A stretch of DNA of 62,352 nucleotides, taken from positions 1 to 62,352 of IMG/VR virus record IMGVR_UViG_3300020021_000009; one strand, given 5' to 3'. Each line of letters opens with the position of its first letter. Positions within the stretch are counted from its first letter, which is position 1. The translations under genes were made by a program, and so were the position numbers. This document shows positions 2,861 to 33,790 of this stretch, piece after piece. This DNA is from a virus. The notes beneath the pieces are model-generated. The model had not been told where the DNA came from and made no database searches. It saw only the letters and a program-made list of their open reading frames with translations.

Positions 2861-3456
2861 CCGTGGACGTCTGGCCCCTGACCAAGGAACAGCGCCGCGC
2901 GCTGGCGGTGTCGGACATCGCCTGCGGCACCCCGGAGGGCTACCGGCTGCACCGGCACCAGCACACCGACCCGTGCCCGCCGTGCGCCTGGGCCTGGGAC
3001 GCAAGCCCCGGCTGCACCCCGGTACCGCGCCGGATCTGCGGAACGAACGAGGGGTGGACCGCGCACCGCAAGCGGTTGGAGTGGCCGTGCGGGCGCTGTG
3101 CGGAGGCGCGCGAGCAGCACGCCCTGGATCTGTGCGGGAGCTACGCCGGATGGATGCTGCACCGCAACAGCGGCACCGTCGTCTGTGACCGGTGCCGGGA
3201 CGCGAACCGGCGCTACACGGCCGCGCGCGGGGAGCGGTCCGGGGGACGGCGGTACCGGACCCTGTCCGGCCGACTGCTCCGGGAACGGGGCGCCGGGGCG
3301 GTCCTGGTCTGCACCCGGCCCGGCTTCACCGGACGTGCCGTGTCCTACGCCCCGCGCAGCCTGCGCGACAAGTACCCGTGGATGGTCGACCCCGGCCTCC
3401 ACATATCGGCCCGCGAGGTGCTGGCCGTCCGCCCAGAGAACGGAACCGCGTCATGA
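2857..3456 (+). CDS. Cys-rich protein with three Zn-binding-type repeats, 199 aa
   Basis: GTG start in a GTGA overlap with the previous stop. Three repeats share C-G-T/S-x3-G-x3-H-R-x5-P/V-C-x2-C: CGTPEGYRLHRHQHTDPCPPC-like, CGTNEGWTAHRKRLEWPCGRC-like and CGSYAGWMLHRNSGTVVCDRC-like (residues about 23-43, 61-82 and 91-112). Each supplies three Cys and a His, so each probably binds zinc. The basic C-terminal half suggests nucleic-acid binding. Similar short repeats are common in actinobacterial phages; the function is not known to me. Confidence 0.85.
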   Translation: MTVDVWPLTKEQRRALAVSDIACGTPEGYRLHRHQHTDPCPPCAWAWDASPGCTPVPRRICGTNEGWTAHRKRLEWPCGRCAEAREQHALDLCGSYAGWMLHRNSGTVVCDRCRDANRRYTAARGERSGGRRYRTLSGRLLRERGAGAVLVCTRPGFTGRAVSYAPRSLRDKYPWMVDPGLHISAREVLAVRPENGTAS

Positions 3457-3677
3457 CGAACCTTCCCGCCGACGGCTTCACCGTCCATCTCACCCACTGC
3501 ACCCAGGGCTGCGACGTCCGGCTGGACGGCACCGGTCCGCTGTGCGCGGACGGCCAGCGGGAGCTGGATGCCGTGGACTGGGGCGCGCGCGCACGGGCCA
3601 TGAACATGGTCGCGGCCCTGGACGGAACACGCCGTGGGCGGGCCAACGCCGCGGCCCGCCGGAGCGCGGCGGCCTGA
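3453..3677 (+). CDS. Hypothetical protein, 74 aa
   Basis: ATG in an ATGA overlap with the preceding gene. It holds two clustered Cys (HCTQGCDV) and an Ala/Arg-rich helical tail. It is the last rightward gene before a convergent minus-strand gene whose stop begins one base after this stop. Confidence 0.7.
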   Translation: MTNLPADGFTVHLTHCTQGCDVRLDGTGPLCADGQRELDAVDWGARARAMNMVAALDGTRRGRANAAARRSAAA

Positions 3678-3678
3678 C

Positions 3679-4116
3679 CTAGCCCACCGACGGCGGGGAT
3701 GTGATGAACTCCGCACAGCCCAGCGCGTCGTAACCGCCCCGGATGACCATGACCGCGTGATCGTACGCGGCCCGGTCCGGGGCGGCTGCGCGTGCGGCGG
3801 AGGTCTCCGTGGAGATCAGCAGGGTGTACAGCGGGCAGAGGCTGTTCCGCCGGGTGGTGGTCTGCGAGGTGTCCAGCCGGTCCGTCAGCGTGTGCACCTG
3901 GACCAGGGCGAGGCCGAGCACCGCGGACAGCACGACGTCCATCGCGACGGCCACGGAGACCACGACGATCCGCCGCCCCTTGCTCCGGTCGCGCCGGTTC
4001 AGCGACACGATCTCCGCCCCGTTGGCGCGGGCGAGTTCCGCGTACTCCTCAGCGATCCCCGCAGCGCGCTCCGCCAGCGCCACCAGCTTGTCCGCCGCGT
4101 CACTCTCCGGACTCAT
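3679..4116 (-). CDS. Single-pass membrane protein, 145 aa
   Basis: ATG start. A helical N-terminal cytoplasmic-type segment (about 45 aa) is followed by basic residues (RRDRSKGRR) and one hydrophobic helix at about 49-72, then a largely extracytoplasmic C-terminus with two Cys. It heads no recognised family. Last gene of a three-gene leftward island with two other small genes, one of which also has a membrane helix, so a membrane or lysis-related role is possible but unproven. Confidence 0.75.
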   Translation of the reverse strand: MSPESDAADKLVALAERAAGIAEEYAELARANGAEIVSLNRRDRSKGRRIVVVSVAVAMDVVLSAVLGLALVQVHTLTDRLDTSQTTTRRNSLCPLYTLLISTETSAARAAAPDRAAYDHAVMVIRGGYDALGCAEFITSPPSVG

Positions 4117-4279
4117 GGCCGTCCCCCTCTTCGCGCTCCAGGACCGCTGCCCGCAGGGCCCGTGCTTCGCGCAGCAGGTCCGCAGTGAACCCGGTCAGCT
4201 CCGCCCCGGACTCCGCCAGGACGCGCCGTAGCTGCTCAGCCCTCAGGATCACCGGGTCCCCCGCGCTGGTGCCGGACAT
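4100..4279 (-). CDS. Hypothetical helical protein, 59 aa
   Basis: ATG start; the 3' end overlaps the start of the gene at 4116 by 17 nt. The whole product is one or two charged helices (LRRVLAESGAELTGFTADLL), likely coiled coil. Middle gene of the leftward island. Confidence 0.65.
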   Translation of the reverse strand: MSGTSAGDPVILRAEQLRRVLAESGAELTGFTADLLREARALRAAVLEREEGDGHESGE

Positions 4280-4283
4280 GCGG

Positions 4284-4586
4284 TCAGCTCCTGCGGAGCG
4301 CGGCCAGCGCGTCCGCCACGGCACGGGAGGACTCCCCGATAGCCGTGTTCGCCTTGACGATCGTATTGACATAGCCATCCTGCACCGCCCTGTTCAACTG
4401 CGAAAGCTCCGACTCGAAACGGTCGGCGCGTGCCTGGGCCGCATCACGGTCGGCGACCAGGCGGGCGGTCTCCTGGTCGTGGTCCTCCTCCATGCGTGTG
4501 AACAGCGACTTGATGGTGACTCCGGCGATGACGGCTATCAGGCCGGCCACCCCGGACTGGAGCAGGATCTGTACGACAGGGTCCAC
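4284..4586 (-). CDS. Small membrane protein with coiled coil, 100 aa
   Basis: GTG start with a strong GGAAGGAGG site. One N-terminal membrane helix (residues about 5-27, VVQILLQSGVAGLIAVIAGV) is followed by a long charged helix with coiled-coil character. The topology matches some phage holin or antiholin-like proteins, but a single TM plus coil is not diagnostic. First gene of the 3679-4586 leftward island, transcribed away from the promoter site at 4665. Confidence 0.75.
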   Translation of the reverse strand: MDPVVQILLQSGVAGLIAVIAGVTIKSLFTRMEEDHDQETARLVADRDAAQARADRFESELSQLNRAVQDGYVNTIVKANTAIGESSRAVADALAALRRS

Positions 4587-4664
4587 GGTCCTCCTTCCGC
4601 CTGCCGTGCATTGTGCCGGAAAAAGATGTTGGACCCGTCATCCGCCGACCGCCCGGAACCGTGG

Positions 4665-4680
4665 TTTAATTAAATCAGTA
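4665..4680 (+). promoter_or_regulatory. AT-rich promoter/operator, site 2
   Basis: TTTAATTAAATCAGTA, identical to the right half of site 1, 22 nt before the gene at 4703 and in the divergent gap next to the leftward island. No good -35 box is visible at 17 bp. Confidence 0.65.
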
Positions 4681-4702
4681 GGACGAAACGACGGAGGACA
4701 TG

Positions 4703-5053
4703 GTGACCGCAGCAGGGACCCGGACAGCCAACCGGCTCCAGTCCGTGAAAGATGCGCTGGCGCTCGCTCTCGCCAACGGCTGGGAGCGCACGCCCGGCAA
4801 GCCCAACTCGGTCATGCGGGCGGTGGAGCACCGGACCCCGGAGCGCATCACCAAGAACTGGTGGCCCGGTGAGACGTACACCTCGTGCGAGTGGGTCAGC
4901 TTCCTGGTGTTCGACGGCGGGGCGCGGATCACCGCGTTCCACGACACCTCGCGCTGCCCGTGGGTCATCCGGCAGGACCGGAAGGTGTCGCTCAAGCGGG
5001 CCCTGGAGATCCTGTCCGACCCGGGACTGTCCGACGCCCACACGAACCACTGA
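4703..5053 (+). CDS. Hypothetical protein, 116 aa
   Basis: GTG chosen because GGAGG ends 5 nt before it; an in-frame ATG three bases earlier leaves only 2 nt of spacing but cannot be excluded. The product is compact, with a Trp-rich core (KNWWPGETYTSCEWVSFLVF) and a helical C-terminus. No known motif. First gene downstream of promoter site 2. Confidence 0.75.
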   Translation: MTAAGTRTANRLQSVKDALALALANGWERTPGKPNSVMRAVEHRTPERITKNWWPGETYTSCEWVSFLVFDGGARITAFHDTSRCPWVIRQDRKVSLKRALEILSDPGLSDAHTNH

Positions 5054-5088
5054 CCTTCCCGCGCGCCACCCGAACGACGGAGGACACC

Positions 5089-5310
5089 GTGAGCACACAC
5101 AGGTGCTGCCCGAACGGCAGCGAGACCATCGCGAGCTACCCGGCCGGAGCCACGGTGTCGCAGCCGCGCGCGGACGAGTACGCGCGCGGCCACCGTGCGC
5201 ACGTCCACTACGACCCGGACACCGACACGTTCACCGTGGCGCGCGCACTGCCCGCGATGCCTGCCGGGACGTGGACCGCACCAGCGGCCTACGCCGCGTT
5301 CGGACGCTGA
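5089..5310 (+). CDS. Hypothetical protein, 73 aa
   Basis: GTG after GGAGGACACC, the same leader as the next gene. N-terminal HRCCPNG and a beta-type C-terminus (HVHYDPDTDTFTVARAL). Unknown function. Confidence 0.7.
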   Translation: MSTHRCCPNGSETIASYPAGATVSQPRADEYARGHRAHVHYDPDTDTFTVARALPAMPAGTWTAPAAYAAFGR

Positions 5311-5372
5311 CCCTCACGCTTCCGCCACATGCGGAGCACACTCACAGCAGGTATACCGCCAGGGAGGACACC

Positions 5373-5621
5373 GTGGACCCGTCGTCGCACCCGAGGACCG
5401 CACCGATCACCGGGGACGCGGACGACCCGGTCCGCGTCCCCGTCCAGCCCATGCTGCGCACGCTGCCGTACTACGGGGCGGAGCAGCGGTGGGTGTTCCA
5501 CCAGTCTCTGTGTCCCACCTGCGGCGGCCAGGGCTGCTTCCCCTGCCCGGTGGGCGGGGCGCTCGCCATCGACGTGGAGAACGCCATCCTGTCCATGCGC
5601 GCGTCCGCGCGGATGAACTGA
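5373..5621 (+). CDS. Small Zn-binding-type protein, 82 aa
   Basis: GTG preceded by GGGAGGACACC. Contains CPTCGGQGCFPCP (residues about 47-59), a four-Cys knuckle resembling the DnaJ-type CxxCxGxG element. The last base of its TGA is the first base of the WhiB-like gene's ATG, so the two are likely co-translated. Confidence 0.75.
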   Translation: MDPSSHPRTAPITGDADDPVRVPVQPMLRTLPYYGAEQRWVFHQSLCPTCGGQGCFPCPVGGALAIDVENAILSMRASARMN

Positions 5622-12554: not shown

Positions 12555-15500
12555 CAGCCACCCGCCGGAACGATGCCGCGCAGGCGTCCCTCGCGCTTGG
12601 CCTGCTGGAGGGAGGCGACCAGCCAGTTCATGACGTCGCGCTGGCTGCCCAGCACACCCTGGTTGACGATGGTCAGGTTGACCGTCACGCCCGCCGCCTC
12701 GCGCGGGCCGATGACCCGCTCCGGGCGGCCCGTGTTGTTGACCGCCAGCGTCCTGCCCGGCATGAGCCAGCCGCCGGAGTCGTAGCCCTGCGGCGGCAGG
12801 TTGGCGTTCGCCTGCTGCACGTGGGTGATGTTGCCGTACCGGGACACGATGTAACGAATGGCCGCCGCGACGTTGGCCACCGGGTTGAGGATGCCGAGGG
12901 ACCGGAGCGAGGACGGGACGTAGTGGTTGAAGGTTCCGGGGATCGTCTGCGCGAGGCCCTGCGAGGGGTGTCCGGCCTTGGCGTTGCTGTCGGTCCGGTT
13001 GATCGCGGACGCGTTCCATCCGGACTCACGCGTGATAAGGGTGTTCATCCCGGACAGCCACTGCGGGGCGGTCCCGGGCGGCGGTACCCCTGCGGCGGCC
13101 ATGGCGGTCCGGATCACGGCCAGGTGCTGGCCCGTCGGGATCTTCCCGCCCATGGAGGAAATCATCTTGTTGTACGCCGTGGCGTACGACGACGCGATCC
13201 GCTTCACCACCGACGCGATGTCCTGCTGCTCCGTGGATCTGGTGGACGCCTGGACACCCGCGTCGGTCGGCATCGTGTAGGACATGGCCATACCCCGGGG
13301 CCCTACAGGTCCGCCGGCCGCGTAGCCGGCCATCTTCAGCACCTGCTTGCGCAGCCGGGACACGGCGTAGTGGCCGCCCGCCGCGCGCACCTCCTTCGCC
13401 GTCCACACGTGCTCGTTGTCGGACAGCATGGACGGGATGTCATCGGAAGTGTCGGTGCCCGGCCCCCGGACGGCTCCGCCGGTCGCGTAGGAGAAGCCGG
13501 TGGTGGACGTGTACGAGTGACCGGTGATCTTGCCCTGGTCCACCCCGTTGAACTTGATATTGACCGGGACGGTCTTCGGCTTTATACCGCCCAGTGATTT
13601 GTTCACGGAGTCTGCGAAGTGGTCGAATGCTTTCTCTGCCGTCTTGAGCTTTCCGCCCAGGCCCGGGATCCACCCGAACATGAGCACGGCCCCGTGCAGG
13701 ATACTGCCCACCATATTCAGGAATCCATTGACGATGAATTTAATAGCAGGCTGAATACCGTTGGTCCACAGCCACATGAACGATGAGGCCAGGGGCTTGA
13801 TCACCCACTTTTCCAGGAAGTTCCAGGTGTCCACGGCGGACGTCTTGATAACGTTCCAGGTCTCTTTCCAGTGCAGCGCGAGGAAGGCGATGGGGGCGAG
13901 CGGTCCGAGAATGAGGATCGCGAACTGGCCGAACCCGTGGGTGAGGAAGTCGAATACCTCGGACGTCGTGGTCTTGATGAAGTTCCACGTCGCGTGCCAG
14001 GCCGTCTGGAACCAGGTGGTCTTGGTGGCGATCAGCACAATGACCGCGATCAGCGCCACGATCCCGATCACGACCCAGGTGACCGGGTTGGCCAGCAGGG
14101 CTACGGTCATCGCCCAGGTGGCCGCGATGGCGGGCCCCAGGGCCGCGGTCCACAGCCATGTGGCCGCGGTCACCAGACCGGTGGCCGTGGCGCTCGCGGC
14201 CATCGCCACGTTGCGCGCGATCAGTGACGCGGTGGACGCGATCAGGGCGATGGTGCCGCTGACCAGGGACGTGCCCCAGAGCCACTGGGCGGCGGTGACC
14301 AGCCCGGTCCACAGTGCCTGCAACCGCAACTGTACGAACACCAGCGCCATCTGGATCCGCAGGCCGAGCATCTGTACCCGGCTGGCTCCGTTGGCCGTGG
14401 AGAACAGCCAGGTCGCGGCAGCCGCGATGGCCGTCACGATGGCGTACGCCTTCATCGCAAGGTTGATCGCGACGATGGCGTTGACCACCTGGTTCAGCAC
14501 CGGGACGGGCAGCGCGGCCAGGATCCGGGCGAGCACCTCCGCCACCTTGAGACCGATCCCGGTCAGCGGGCCCAGGCCCCCGGCTACGTGGGTGGCAGCG
14601 GCGGCGATCTTCTCGAACGCCGCACCGACCTTGGGGCCGTCCTCCTTCGCGGTGGCGAAGAACGCCTGCACCCCGCCATTGCTCCCCGCGGTGGCACCCC
14701 AGTCGGCGAACTTCGCGGTGAGTGTGGTCAGGCCCCCGGTCACCCCGGCAGCCATCGGGGTGAAGGCGTCCAGGATCCCTGCGAAGCCGACGGCGAGGTT
14801 CCGGCCAATGTTCAGGAAGTCCGTGAGGCTGCCGCCGGACAGGTCCCCGATGTCCTTCCCGAACTTGCTGAAGACCTGGCCCCCGGTGCCGGCGCCGATG
14901 TTCTCCACGAACGACTTGACGTCCGCCGCCGCCGTGCGCACGATCGGGGACAGCTTCGGCAGCAGCCCCTGGACCTTCTCGATACCGAGAGTGAAGATCG
15001 GCATGGTGGATCCGGACAGGCCGTCCGACCACTTCTGGAACGCGTCCTGGAGGCCGGCGAACGCCACGGCCGTCTGACGGGTGGCCGGCGGCAGCCCGGA
15101 GAGCGTGTCGTTGTACTGCGCCTGGGCGGTCTTGGCCGCGTCGCTCGCGCTCTTTGCCTTGGCCAGGGCCGCCGCGTACTCCTTCCCCCCGGCACCCGCG
15201 AGCTGCTGCGCGCGCAGTGCCGCCTCCGCCGCCGCCTTCTGGGCCGCCGCCGCTCCCTTGGACCCGGACAGGGCGAGCTGCTGAGCCCGCTGCCGCAGCG
15301 CGGTGGCGTTGGCCACCGCGTTCTCGTACGCGACGCCGTTCTTCCCGGCGGCGGCGGTCGCCTGCTGCTGGGCGACGGTGGCCTTCTGCTGCGCAGCCTG
15401 GGCCGTGGCCTGCTGCTGGGTCGCAGCCGTGATCTGCTTGAACTGCGGGATCACCGCCGCACCGAGCGCCCCGGCGGCGGCCCCCGCACCGAGGAAGGCG

Positions 15501-15667
15501 GCAGCGATGGCGCCGACGCCAACGACCACGGGGGCGACGGCGGGCAGCAGGGTGGTGGACAGGACCGTCTTGCCGATCCCGCCCAGTGCCTCAATGGCCA
15601 CCTCCGCCGGTTTGGTGTCTGCGGAGATGCGAACGAACGCGGAACCGATCAGGCTACCGAGTGCCAT
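12554..15667 (-). CDS. Tape measure protein with C-terminal lytic transglycosylase-like domain, 1037 aa
   Basis: ATG start. Ala/Gln-rich coiled coil at residues about 75-200, hydrophobic membrane-like helices at about 385-580, and near the C-terminus (about 860-970) an SLT-like region with ITRESGWNASAIN and QGLAQTIPGTF. Tape measures set tail length and can open the cell wall during DNA entry. It follows the frameshifted chaperone genes in the standard order. The 3' half contains an AT-richer patch (about 13540-13790) with atypical codon use, a possible recombination seam. Confidence 0.9.
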   Translation of the reverse strand: MALGSLIGSAFVRISADTKPAEVAIEALGGIGKTVLSTTLLPAVAPVVVGVGAIAAAFLGAGAAAGALGAAVIPQFKQITAATQQQATAQAAQQKATVAQQQATAAAGKNGVAYENAVANATALRQRAQQLALSGSKGAAAAQKAAAEAALRAQQLAGAGGKEYAAALAKAKSASDAAKTAQAQYNDTLSGLPPATRQTAVAFAGLQDAFQKWSDGLSGSTMPIFTLGIEKVQGLLPKLSPIVRTAAADVKSFVENIGAGTGGQVFSKFGKDIGDLSGGSLTDFLNIGRNLAVGFAGILDAFTPMAAGVTGGLTTLTAKFADWGATAGSNGGVQAFFATAKEDGPKVGAAFEKIAAAATHVAGGLGPLTGIGLKVAEVLARILAALPVPVLNQVVNAIVAINLAMKAYAIVTAIAAAATWLFSTANGASRVQMLGLRIQMALVFVQLRLQALWTGLVTAAQWLWGTSLVSGTIALIASTASLIARNVAMAASATATGLVTAATWLWTAALGPAIAATWAMTVALLANPVTWVVIGIVALIAVIVLIATKTTWFQTAWHATWNFIKTTTSEVFDFLTHGFGQFAILILGPLAPIAFLALHWKETWNVIKTSAVDTWNFLEKWVIKPLASSFMWLWTNGIQPAIKFIVNGFLNMVGSILHGAVLMFGWIPGLGGKLKTAEKAFDHFADSVNKSLGGIKPKTVPVNIKFNGVDQGKITGHSYTSTTGFSYATGGAVRGPGTDTSDDIPSMLSDNEHVWTAKEVRAAGGHYAVSRLRKQVLKMAGYAAGGPVGPRGMAMSYTMPTDAGVQASTRSTEQQDIASVVKRIASSYATAYNKMISSMGGKIPTGQHLAVIRTAMAAAGVPPPGTAPQWLSGMNTLITRESGWNASAINRTDSNAKAGHPSQGLAQTIPGTFNHYVPSSLRSLGILNPVANVAAAIRYIVSRYGNITHVQQANANLPPQGYDSGGWLMPGRTLAVNNTGRPERVIGPREAAGVTVNLTIVNQGVLGSQRDVMNWLVASLQQAKREGRLRGIVPAGG

Positions 15668-30885: not shown

Positions 30886-30899
30886 CTTAATCAAATCAG
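30886..30899 (-). promoter_or_regulatory. AT-rich promoter/operator within the end of terL, site 4
   Basis: Minus strand CTGATTTGATTAAG, a variant of the palindromic motif flanked by GGCT/AGCC. It includes the TGA stop of terL and lies 41 nt before the holin-like start. It may drive the lysis/portal genes separately. Confidence 0.55.
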
Positions 30900-33100
30900 C
30901 CCACGACGCGGTCCATGGCCTTGAAGCCCTGGCCCACCCGGATGCCCCCCTTGCCGCCGCGCAGGTGCGCCACACCGAGCCCGATGGCGTCCCAGACCAT
31001 GGCGTCCAGCCGGTCCGGGGACCAGTCCAGTTCCGGGGTCCAGGTGGTCAGCTGGTCCTCCAGCTGCTCGAAGCGACCGGCGAAGTGCCACCGCCCCTGC
31101 TGGGTGAGCGCGGACACCGGTTCCGCCCGCACCCGCTTGCCCCGGGTCGCGGTCACCACCTTGATCCTGATCGGTACGCCCATGTCCTCCGCCGCGGACC
31201 GGATCGTGGACACGGCCATGTCACGGCCGTAGTTCAGTTCCACGGTGATGTCCGCCGCGTCGTGGTCGATCGCGGCCTGGACCGCGCGCCGGCCCCACCC
31301 GTCCGGCTTGAGATGACAGGTGTAGTCCGCGAGCACGAACCCGTGCACCGTCTTGCGTCCGCCCTCCTCAGGCGTCCACAGCGCGCTCTTCCCGGCGACG
31401 ACGATGCCCTGCTCCCCGGCACCGCCCGACGGGTCCACGCCCACCGTGACGCGGGTCAGCGGGGGCAGGTCCGCGGGGTCGATGCGCACGGCACTGATCA
31501 TGTCGCGGGTCCACAGCGCGTTCTCGTCCTCCTCCATGATCAGGCCCAGCAGCTCCTGGTCGCCCTTGCGCGTCCCCTTGTACGCGTCCTCCAGGGCGTC
31601 GCGGATCTCCTGCGGGAGGTGGGGGTTGTCGTACGTCGTGGCCCGGGTCACGACCGTGTTCCGGAACTCGCCGCGTTCCAGGCGCTTGATCAGTCCGCGC
31701 GGCTTCGGCGTGGTGGACCCGATCCAGCGCGGATGCGGACCGGACCGGAGTCCGAACCGCATCTGGTCCCACGCCTCGTCCATGAACCGCCAGGCCGCGA
31801 TCTCCTCCAACCAGGCCAGGCAGTTGGAGACCAGGAGATCGTCAGCGAAGAACTCATGATCATGCTCAACGGTCAGGTCGTAGACCCTTGCCACGCTGTG
31901 CGTAGGCGTGGACCGAAGTACACCGCCGCGAACAGGTGCTGGTGGGGTTGCGGGCAGGGCACTCGAACATGTTGCCGCACACGCGGCACACCCGTTGCTC
32001 CCGTGTTCGTGACGCATGGTCACGACAGGCAGCGGAGCAGAACCGGACCACGGCAGCGGCTGCGCGGCTACGGAACGGCCGGGAGCAGCGTTCACAGGTG
32101 AAGTCCCGCCAGACACGTGCCGCGACGGACGCCCGACCGCCCTTGGCGTGCCAGTCCTCCCCGCGCTCCGCTCCGTGCTCTGCCCAGTGCTCACCGGGTG
32201 GGAGCAGCACAAAGTTGGAGACCTGGTTGTCCCGCTTGTCGTGGTTCTTGTGGTGCACCTGCATGCCGTCCGGGATGTCCCCGACTTCCTTGGTCCACAT
32301 CCATCGGTGCAGCAGCCCCCGGTTGCTGTTCCGGTAGTACGGATCCCGCCCGTTCGCGTTCCACCGGACCCCGTCGTACGTGATCGGCTCACCGTATCGT
32401 CCCATGACAACACTGTATCAGTCGTCTGGACGAACGAGGCTTGTTGCCACCCGCGCTGCTCCGTCCAGACCTCATGGTCCGGAGTCAGCCAGGTGGACCC
32501 CGCATCGTGGTCGAACCGCCACACCGGGCGCACCCCGTTGTCCCAGACCTGGAGAACAAACCTCAGTCCGTTTCTGGTCCACACCCGGTCACCGGGTCGC
32601 ACCTGCTCAATCGGTACCGGACCGCGCTCCGTACGGATCATGGACCCTTCACGCACGCAACGGTTACCGCCCGAGCGCAGCCGCTCCGTGTCGTCCATGC
32701 TGTTGGCTCCGAACAGCTTCGCCTCCGAGCCGTTGGGCCAGCGGACCACGGTGCCTCCCTGGACCGTGACCATGCGCGCGGTCGGGTCGTGGGCCATGAT
32801 CCCGGACGGCCCGGTGACGCAGGAGGTGGCAGCGTCGCCCAGGGTGGGGGCGATGATCCCGACCCAGTGCGGAGCCCGGCCGGGCAGGCACGGCGGTCCG
32901 TTGACGTGGTCCACGATGTACTTCGCGCAGGCGTCCGTCTTGCCCGCCCCGCGCCCCGCGAGCAGCAGCCACCCGTACCAGTCGCCCGGCGGCGGGACCT
33001 GGTGGGGGCGCGGTGTCCAGCGCGGGGACAGCAGGTCGGCCAGGCGTGAGGAGAACACGTCCTTCGCCTTGGCCGCCACCTCGCGCTGATCACGGTTCAT
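30896..33100 (-). CDS. terL: Terminase large subunit, interrupted by an intein (734-aa precursor)
   Basis: ATG (MNRDQREVA); a GTG ten codons upstream is possible. Walker A is GRGAGKT at residues about 49-55. The intein runs from Cys148 to Asn426, with Cys427 as +1 extein residue, splitting the Walker B region GGNR|CLAWLEEIAAW. After splicing the enzyme would be about 455 aa, a normal TerL length, with nuclease motifs VGVDPSGGAGEQG, ADITVELNYGRD and LDWSPDRLDAMVWDA. It cuts and pumps phage DNA into proheads. It must be spliced to work, because the intein is in the ATPase centre. Confidence 0.9.
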   Translation of the reverse strand: MNRDQREVAAKAKDVFSSRLADLLSPRWTPRPHQVPPPGDWYGWLLLAGRGAGKTDACAKYIVDHVNGPPCLPGRAPHWVGIIAPTLGDAATSCVTGPSGIMAHDPTARMVTVQGGTVVRWPNGSEAKLFGANSMDDTERLRSGGNRCVREGSMIRTERGPVPIEQVRPGDRVWTRNGLRFVLQVWDNGVRPVWRFDHDAGSTWLTPDHEVWTEQRGWQQASFVQTTDTVLSWDDTVSRSRTTGSGGTRTGGIRTTGTATGGCCTDGCGPRKSGTSRTACRCTTRTTTSGTTRSPTLCCSHPVSTGQSTERSAGRTGTPRAVGRPSRHVSGGTSPVNAAPGRSVAAQPLPWSGSAPLPVVTMRHEHGSNGCAACAATCSSALPATPPAPVRGGVLRSTPTHSVARVYDLTVEHDHEFFADDLLVSNCLAWLEEIAAWRFMDEAWDQMRFGLRSGPHPRWIGSTTPKPRGLIKRLERGEFRNTVVTRATTYDNPHLPQEIRDALEDAYKGTRKGDQELLGLIMEEDENALWTRDMISAVRIDPADLPPLTRVTVGVDPSGGAGEQGIVVAGKSALWTPEEGGRKTVHGFVLADYTCHLKPDGWGRRAVQAAIDHDAADITVELNYGRDMAVSTIRSAAEDMGVPIRIKVVTATRGKRVRAEPVSALTQQGRWHFAGRFEQLEDQLTTWTPELDWSPDRLDAMVWDAIGLGVAHLRGGKGGIRVGQGFKAMDRVVG
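31823..32659 (-). other. TerL intein (279 aa) with a foreign-frame HNH gene in its middle
   Basis: N-terminal splicing block starts CVREGSMIRTERGPVPIEQV; block B is STWLTPDHEVWT (TxxH). Block F/G is VYDLTVEHDHEFFADDLLVSN followed by Cys. Penultimate residue is Ser rather than the usual His. Between blocks B and F the intein frame stays open for about 170 codons but reads as Arg/Thr/Gly/Ser-rich low-complexity sequence, the shadow of the HNH gene in another frame. Confidence 0.9.
31866..32405 (-). CDS. HNH homing-type endonuclease nested out of frame in the TerL intein, 179 aa
   Basis: ATG start; a TGA lies five codons upstream in the same frame, so it is a bounded gene, not an extension. HNH core is VHHKNHDKRDNQVSNFVLL (residues 50-68). 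Two zinc-finger-like pairs follow: CERC(104-107)/CSAAC(123-127) and CRVC(140-143)/CSRRC(158-162). It lies in the -1 frame relative to terL. No strong Shine-Dalgarno is seen. Its last about 11 codons overlap the conserved intein C-terminal block, so that stretch is genuinely dual-coding. Probable role: intein homing into uninterrupted terL genes. Confidence 0.9.
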   Translation of the reverse strand: MGRYGEPITYDGVRWNANGRDPYYRNSNRGLLHRWMWTKEVGDIPDGMQVHHKNHDKRDNQVSNFVLLPPGEHWAEHGAERGEDWHAKGGRASVAARVWRDFTCERCSRPFRSRAAAAVVRFCSAACRDHASRTREQRVCRVCGNMFECPARNPTSTCSRRCTSVHAYAQRGKGLRPDR

Positions 33101-33133
33101 GGGGACAGGATGCCCGACCCCGGACAGCACGAC

Positions 33134-33161
33134 GCCCCGGCAGCGTGGGGACTGCCGGGGC
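33134..33161 (-). terminator. Perfect hairpin between terS and terL
   Basis: 10-bp stem GCCCCGGCAG/CTGCCGGGGC with an 8-nt loop, 34 nt before the terL ATG. No T-tract, so it may attenuate or protect mRNA ends rather than terminate; terL still needs transcription from upstream or an unseen promoter. Confidence 0.55.
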
Positions 33162-33199
33162 GGGGCCGCGTCATGGCCCCCGCAGCGTAGCGCAGGCGG

Positions 33200-33790
33200 T
33201 CAGCCCACGGCGCCGCTGTCGTCGGCCACCCTCGCCAGCTGCTCCCCCATGGTCTCCAGCATCATCCGCCGCATGTCGGGCGGCAGGCCCATGGCGTCGG
33301 CCACCGCGAACAGGGTGTCGGCCACCACGGACGCCTCCACGCTGCTGCGCGCGTCCAGGGCGATGGACAGTTCCTTGGCCGCGTTCAGGCCGTGGAGCAG
33401 CGCGTGACGGTCCGCGATCCGGCCCAACTGCGCGATGGCCGCCATGACCGGGGCGTGGTCACGGAGCGGTACCCCGTCGTCGTCCTTGACGATGCGGCCC
33501 TGCGAGACGACCACGTGGTCCGCGCGGATGATCGCGTACAGCCGCTGCCGCAGGTCGTTGTTCCGGTCGTCCTCCACCTGGCGGAGCTCCACAAGATCGT
33601 GGCCCAGCGCCTCGCGCTCGTTCTTGAGCGCGGCCGTCACGGCGTGGTAGGCGGACCCGCGGTCCGCGTACCCGCCGGCCACCGCCGCGACGTCCCAGGT
33701 CGCCCCCTCCAGGCGTGCCTGGATCACCCGGCGCCGCTTGGCCGCGGCGTCCGCCTGGTCCTCGGGTCCCGGGAACGGGTTGGACGCCAC
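33200..33790 (-). CDS. Terminase small subunit-like protein, 196 aa
   Basis: GTG start. Helical protein with an N-terminal helix-turn-helix-like part (ARLEGATWDVAAVAGGYADRGSAYHAVTAAL) and a coiled-coil middle. It sits directly upstream of terL, the usual place for TerS, which recognises the packaging site. No motif is decisive. Confidence 0.65.
   Translation of the reverse strand: MASNPFPGPEDQADAAAKRRRVIQARLEGATWDVAAVAGGYADRGSAYHAVTAALKNEREALGHDLVELRQVEDDRNNDLRQRLYAIIRADHVVVSQGRIVKDDDGVPLRDHAPVMAAIAQLGRIADRHALLHGLNAAKELSIALDARSSVEASVVADTLFAVADAMGLPPDMRRMMLETMGEQLARVADDSGAVG

Follow-up and report, generated by a model that had tools for sequence, protein, structure and literature searches.

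Background

A textbook mobile intein is a single polypeptide that carries out both splicing and DNA cutting. Fractured genes, in which split inteins have an endonuclease gene in between, are reportedly described by Dassa 2009. The dCTP deaminase of cyanophage CL131 contains an in-frame HNH intein for which self-excision has been shown (PMC6293099), and the split intein of MIJ3 PolB has an HNH gene located between its halves (PMC6892783). TerL is the commonest host of mycobacteriophage inteins and insertion is at ATPase active-site motifs (PMC5050341). The ShiLan element is an out-of-frame HNH gene in a methylase and was judged by its authors not to be an intein (PMC11855218). Free-standing endonucleases found beside their target gene are discussed as collaborative homing in PMC10448857. 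No intein with an out-of-frame or antisense endonuclease was found in the openly accessible literature that was searched.

The DNA analyzed here, termed the window, is the 62,352-nucleotide IMG/VR virus record IMGVR_UViG_3300020021_000009. Its terL locus very probably contains a mobile intein whose splicing and homing functions are divided between two overlapping genes. Similar to canonical in-frame inteins (CL131, and the DNA polymerase I inteins L149 and L150), the window has a HINT domain with an endonuclease in the gap that precedes block F, however the canonical endonuclease is within the intein polypeptide and that of the window is a separate overlapping open reading frame. Split inteins (Dassa 2009, MIJ3 PolB) also have an endonuclease with its own open reading frame in the intein gap, but the host gene is in two open reading frames, whereas the host frame of the window is continuous; the loci L049 and L066, which carry the same HNH family, resemble fractured versions. 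The mycobacteriophage inteins share the TerL host with the window and often the absence of the penultimate His, and unlike the window no out-of-frame endonuclease is mentioned for them in the accessible part of PMC5050341. In collaborative homing the endonuclease is beside the target gene and in the window the gene is inside the intein, although the window family does have free-standing members beside terminase genes in six named phages.

The terL gene and its intein

The terL reading frame is unbroken over minus-strand positions 33130–30896 and is 744 aa in length counted from the GTG, thus it is not a fractured or split gene. The sequence-only reading had described a frame open from start to stop with clear splicing blocks, and this is borne out by exact coordinates, by profiles above their cut-offs and by a predicted HINT fold. 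Cys1 of the intein is Cys158 from the terL GTG (Cys148 from the ATG at position 33100) and is followed by T-x-x-H (T216/H219), block F VYDLTVEHDHEFF and the C-terminal junction VSN|C. These are the features of a class 1 intein, i.e. Cys or Ser at position 1, a block B T-x-x-H, and a C-terminal Asn followed by Cys, Ser or Thr. The NCBIfam intein_Cterm profile scores 22.2 bits (cut-off 15.6) and the Pfam Hint_2 match is also above its cut-off. The penultimate residue is Ser where His is usual, though not obligatory. Since phage inteins frequently lack this His (PMC5050341), the Ser does not deny membership. A Pfam TerL_ATPase search of the record gave no match, because the window TerL matches Terminase_6.

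The AlphaFold2 model of the intein frame has a pLDDT of about 90 in both halves of the splicing domain, the first of which comprises model residues 1–93, and a pLDDT of less than 50 for residues 94–240. Foldseek aligns the model with DnaB and RecA mini-inteins, 1mi8 among them, with a TM of 0.81 on the target. The model therefore predicts that the intein frame forms a mini-intein whose middle is disordered, and the earlier description of the middle of this frame as shadow sequence agrees with the low pLDDT values.

The nested HNH gene

The HNH ATG follows the terL start at a distance of 725 nt, which places the gene in the −1 frame with respect to terL and its splicing domain. It occupies the linker that separates the two splicing-domain halves, starting where the N-terminal half ends and having its stop codon inside intein block F. 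The open reading frame matches Pfam HNH_3 (E 2.6e-14) and phrog_15471 (7.7e-24), and displays both an HNH motif and DNA-binding zinc fingers, as is characteristic of HNH homing endonucleases. When the overlapping DNA is read in the HNH frame, the AlphaFold2 mean pLDDT is 88.3; the best Foldseek match of this model is I-HmuI, which is weak (E 0.058), with no stronger one. Pfam, the alignment and the fold thus uphold the sequence-only reading of a complete 179-aa HNH gene with its own ATG, an HNH core and two zinc fingers, and the TGA that it placed five codons before the ATG is at positions 32420–32418, 15 nt upstream. When the window HNH was used as a single-protein query against viral contigs there was no match; profile scans did yield loci. 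Coordinates are listed in Table 1.

Table 1. Features of the terL locus of the window
Feature	Positions	Strand	Evidence or remarks
terL precursor (large terminase with intein)	30896..33130	-	Terminase_6N 5.8e-11, Terminase_6C 8.1e-06, phrog_2; alternative ATG 33100
Intein, residues 158–436, 279 aa	31823..32659	-	Cys1 to Asn, C-extein starts with Cys (GGNR|C...VSN|C)
N-terminal half of splicing (HINT) domain, blocks A and B	32393..32659	-	AlphaFold2 pLDDT about 90; Foldseek mini-inteins
C-terminal half of splicing domain, blocks F and G	31823..31951	-	NCBIfam TIGR01443; model residues from about 241
HNH endonuclease gene, 179 aa, −1 frame relative to terL	31866..32405	-	Pfam, phrog, AlphaFold2 mean pLDDT 88.3, weak I-HmuI match
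TGA in HNH frame, 15 nt upstream of HNH ATG	32418..32420	-	Sequence
HNH_3 nuclease core, HNH residues 32–72	32190..32312	-	Pfam
Zinc finger 1 (C104/C107–C123/C127)	32025..32096	-	Cys invariant in relatives
Zinc finger 2 (C140/C143–C158/C162)	31920..31988	-	Cys invariant in relatives
Region with constraint in both frames	31866..32045	-	Third-position diversity, pN/pS; structurally supported dual-coded part 31866–31951

Relatives with the nested layout

The same layout is present at the same terL site in six divergent relatives. A viral-contig scan with the TerL sequence gave L001 (= L003) and L032 at this site, and also revealed a second insertion site near the TerL C-terminus (L014–L017 and L019). 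HNH profile scans added L035, L036, L038 and L136 to the same-site relatives, the last of these in the genome of Streptomyces caniscabiei, together with many more loci. L148 displays the nested layout in a second bacterial genome; searches of genomes at the family and phylum levels yielded few extra cases, i.e. L148 and in-frame PolA inteins.

Among 86 distinct HNH loci, 60 are within a long host open reading frame and 59 of these have intein ends, the remaining one being cut by a contig edge. The HNH gene is in the −1 frame in 58 of the 59 intein loci and L093 has it in the other frame. Because the HNH served as bait for retrieving the loci, layouts with other nucleases are under-sampled. Near-invariant columns in the 60-row alignment include C158, T216, H219, V416, Y417, N436 and C437. 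Pfam matches in the 60 hosts are to Intein_splicing (44), Hint_2 (36), Terminase_6N (36) and Terminase_3 (11). Insertion sites differ among members, thus the elements form a family and are not copies of a single allele. From their flanking residues, the sites may correspond to motifs such as Walker B and the RNase H-like active site.

Two cultured phages, Tetrasphaera TJE1 and Acinetobacter Highwayman, have a nested out-of-frame HNH gene in a locus annotated solely as TerL. TJE1 is locus L139 (HQ225832.1, positions 13379–15565) and Highwayman is L137. The annotation, e.g. in TJE1, shows an oddly long TerL alone because the HNH is written over the same DNA.

An HNH fused in frame at the same terL position, which would have spoken against the sequence-only reading, was not found among the homologues. 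In-frame HNH inteins were met only in DNA polymerase I (L149 and L150), where the HNH is distantly related and the layout is canonical. The out-of-frame layout is general, and the earlier reader could see neither this generality nor the antisense form described below.

Expression of the HNH gene

The HNH start is an ATG in 54 of the 59 loci, and a stop in the HNH frame is found within approximately 63 nt upstream of it in 52 of 59 (15 nt in the window). A Shine-Dalgarno sequence of at least 4 nt is present at 21 of 59 HNH starts, mostly in lower-GC members, as compared with about 10% of control ATGs. The window and its clade have none at the start of the HNH gene, and a promoter/terminator scan with mRNA folding at the window HNH start displayed no promoter and no unusual mRNA structure. 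Initiation without a Shine-Dalgarno sequence is usual in Actinobacteria, and the window HNH start is likely used in this manner. The upstream stops and the Shine-Dalgarno enrichment across loci support the earlier proposal that the splicing and homing parts are translated separately, with the window clade having no Shine-Dalgarno sequence.

These data also bear on a programmed −1 frameshift, which would fuse the N-terminal intein half to the HNH in addition to production of the full precursor. The nearly constant −1 frame fits such a product, as does the HNH frame of L001 and L038, which is open far upstream. However, the upstream stops, the ATG starts and the Shine-Dalgarno enrichment argue against it, and the −1 bias is partly due to the matching host frame having fewer stops than the other frame. 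Frameshifting is thus a very unlikely explanation, and separate initiation on the HNH gene is the preferred one.

Open frame and constraint

Openness of the intein (host) frame was scored after the synonymous codons of the HNH gene were redrawn. In the window the intein frame stays open in 73–88% of such shuffles (P 0.73–0.88). Because most shuffles of this GC-rich sequence stay open, the openness of the window frame is not evidence by itself; the case rests on the intein blocks, the fold and the homologues. The host frame has no stops in 61 of 61 nested loci, down to a GC content of 28% (L101). The log10 P summed over these loci is about −92 with permuted codons and about −107 with codon usage, values that overstate the strength since the loci are in part related to one another and openness was a criterion in their selection. 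A control free of this selection is given by the free-standing HNH relatives beside terL, which have 1–12 stops in the host-side frame in the six named phages; other non-nested loci of the HNH family have several. L093 (positions 2–1948) alone among the sense-nested inteins has its HNH in the +1 frame, and 0 of 5000 shuffles are open.

In the seven-member same-site clade, third-position diversity of the HNH gene is 0.42–0.54 up to codon column 120 and 0.25 thereafter (permutation p < 5e-5), and first-position diversity is unchanged across this column. For columns 0–119, pN/pS is 0.12–0.48 in the HNH frame versus 0.7–2.6 in the intein frame. Beyond column 120, five of six pairs have a higher HNH-frame value and five of six have a lower intein-frame value. 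The first two thirds therefore mainly code for the nuclease, and both frames are under constraint in the last third. The sequence-only reading had suggested dual coding over the last 11 or so HNH codons. Dual coding of the 3′ end holds but the length does not: the HNH gene overlaps the C-terminal intein half by about 28 codons in the fold model, and the two-frame constraint signal covers roughly the final 60.

A frame that is open by chance, with either the intein or the HNH gene as a relic, would be compatible with the codon make-up of the window, from which its openness is expected. This is very unlikely, as the splicing residues are nearly invariant, AT-rich members (L101, 28% GC) are open as well, and each frame is constrained in its own region.

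Artefact and other known elements

The window is an IMG/VR record and probably metagenome-assembled, so that assembly or sequencing indels might have pushed an in-frame endonuclease out of frame. The −1 relation however holds for tens of divergent loci, for two bacterial genomes and for cultured phages, and the selection signatures fit two real frames. Comparison with relatives excludes paired indels as a general explanation, such an artefact is highly improbable for the window, and the layout is confirmed as real.

An insertion of the ShiLan type, i.e. an out-of-frame HNH gene in a host gene that has no splicing element, embodies a like idea, an HNH hidden in a phage gene (PMC11855218). The ShiLan/Applejack gp54/gp55 locus resembles the window in that the HNH is in another frame, the host frame is open and the distribution is sporadic (PMC12613952). 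Unlike the window, the Applejack gene displays no intein modules by profile, its HNH is barely similar and the relative frame is +1. Since the window has a full intein with a confident predicted fold, this reading has hardly any probability. L126, which has a methylase host and an out-of-frame HNH, is a case of the ShiLan type. Group I introns typically carry HNH genes, but a self-splicing RNA intron carrying the HNH gene has a negligible probability, as positions 31000–33200 give no Rfam match to an intron at E up to 1 (i.e. no group I or II catalytic core), the element contains no stop in the host frame and is predicted to have an intein fold.

Antisense architecture

L028 is a TerL relative with a P-loop intein, within which a different HNH gene is encoded on the opposite strand. 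The gene is at L028:3497–4210 (minus strand) within the host open reading frame 3148–5568 and displays HNH_3 (2.6e-13) and a helix-turn-helix. Seventeen of the 19 loci retrieved with the L028-type HNH are nested antisense in open reading frames with intein modules. The 16 antisense loci analyzed singly share one common antisense phase, each with a shuffle P of 0.02 or less; the summed log10 P is −48 for these partly related loci. Nine antisense hosts were scanned and comprise seven TerL, an SNF2-type helicase (L152) and one that is untyped (L163). As a group, L151–L167 are HNH–helix-turn-helix genes antisense within P-loop inteins, mostly of TerL.

Mobility and proposed mechanism

The nearest TerL, L002, is 85% identical in the exteins and is intein-free, its junction reading GGNR|CLFWLEE; thus close relatives differ in whether they have the element at this site, as is characteristic of a mobile HNH element. 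In the TerL tree the same-site intein requires at least five gains or losses, between which the tree does not discriminate. This sporadic same-site distribution would be as expected of homing. Free-standing HNHs of the family are beside terminase genes in Exiguobacterium phage vB_EauM-23, Lactobacillus CL2, Pseudomonas PAE1, Sphaerotilus SN1, Salmonella PhiSTP1 and Acinetobacter BP10.

Splicing, cleavage, homing, translation of the HNH gene and recognition of its start are proposed here from sequence. Ribosomes would translate the terL frame straight through the intein. The splicing domain, with a linker of about 147 disordered residues that is the shadow of the HNH gene, would then excise itself as a class 1 intein (Cys1, Asn, Cys+1) and join the TerL halves. 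Ribosomes would also initiate at the internal −1-frame ATG to give a free HNH zinc-finger nuclease. This nuclease would cut an intein-free terL at the insertion site, and repair would copy in the intein together with its nested gene.

Such an arrangement would mean that splicing and cutting are two proteins encoded over the same DNA, with their expression and evolution uncoupled. Judging from the models, mini-inteins seem to tolerate disordered linkers of about 150 residues. The loci also furnish many natural long overlapping gene pairs, sense and antisense.

In L049 (1470–3778) and L066 (1416–3754) the N-intein, the HNH and the C-intein are in three different frames, i.e. a fractured gene, and L044 (440–3055) has stops in the intein linker. 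By sequence these three are candidate split inteins, and they suggest a path from neighbor gene to nested gene to split intein. On balance, it appears that phage inteins repeatedly carry the endonuclease as a separate overlapping gene, either sense in the −1 frame (many terL sites) or antisense (P-loop inteins), and that the designs are possible steps from free-standing to nested to fractured, which would show entry of the endonuclease without fusion. Such a series would provide a testable account of how free-standing endonucleases gain entry to inteins and how split inteins originate.

L119 (1828–5019) is a TerL open reading frame of 1064 aa that contains two inteins, each apparently with an out-of-frame HNH gene.
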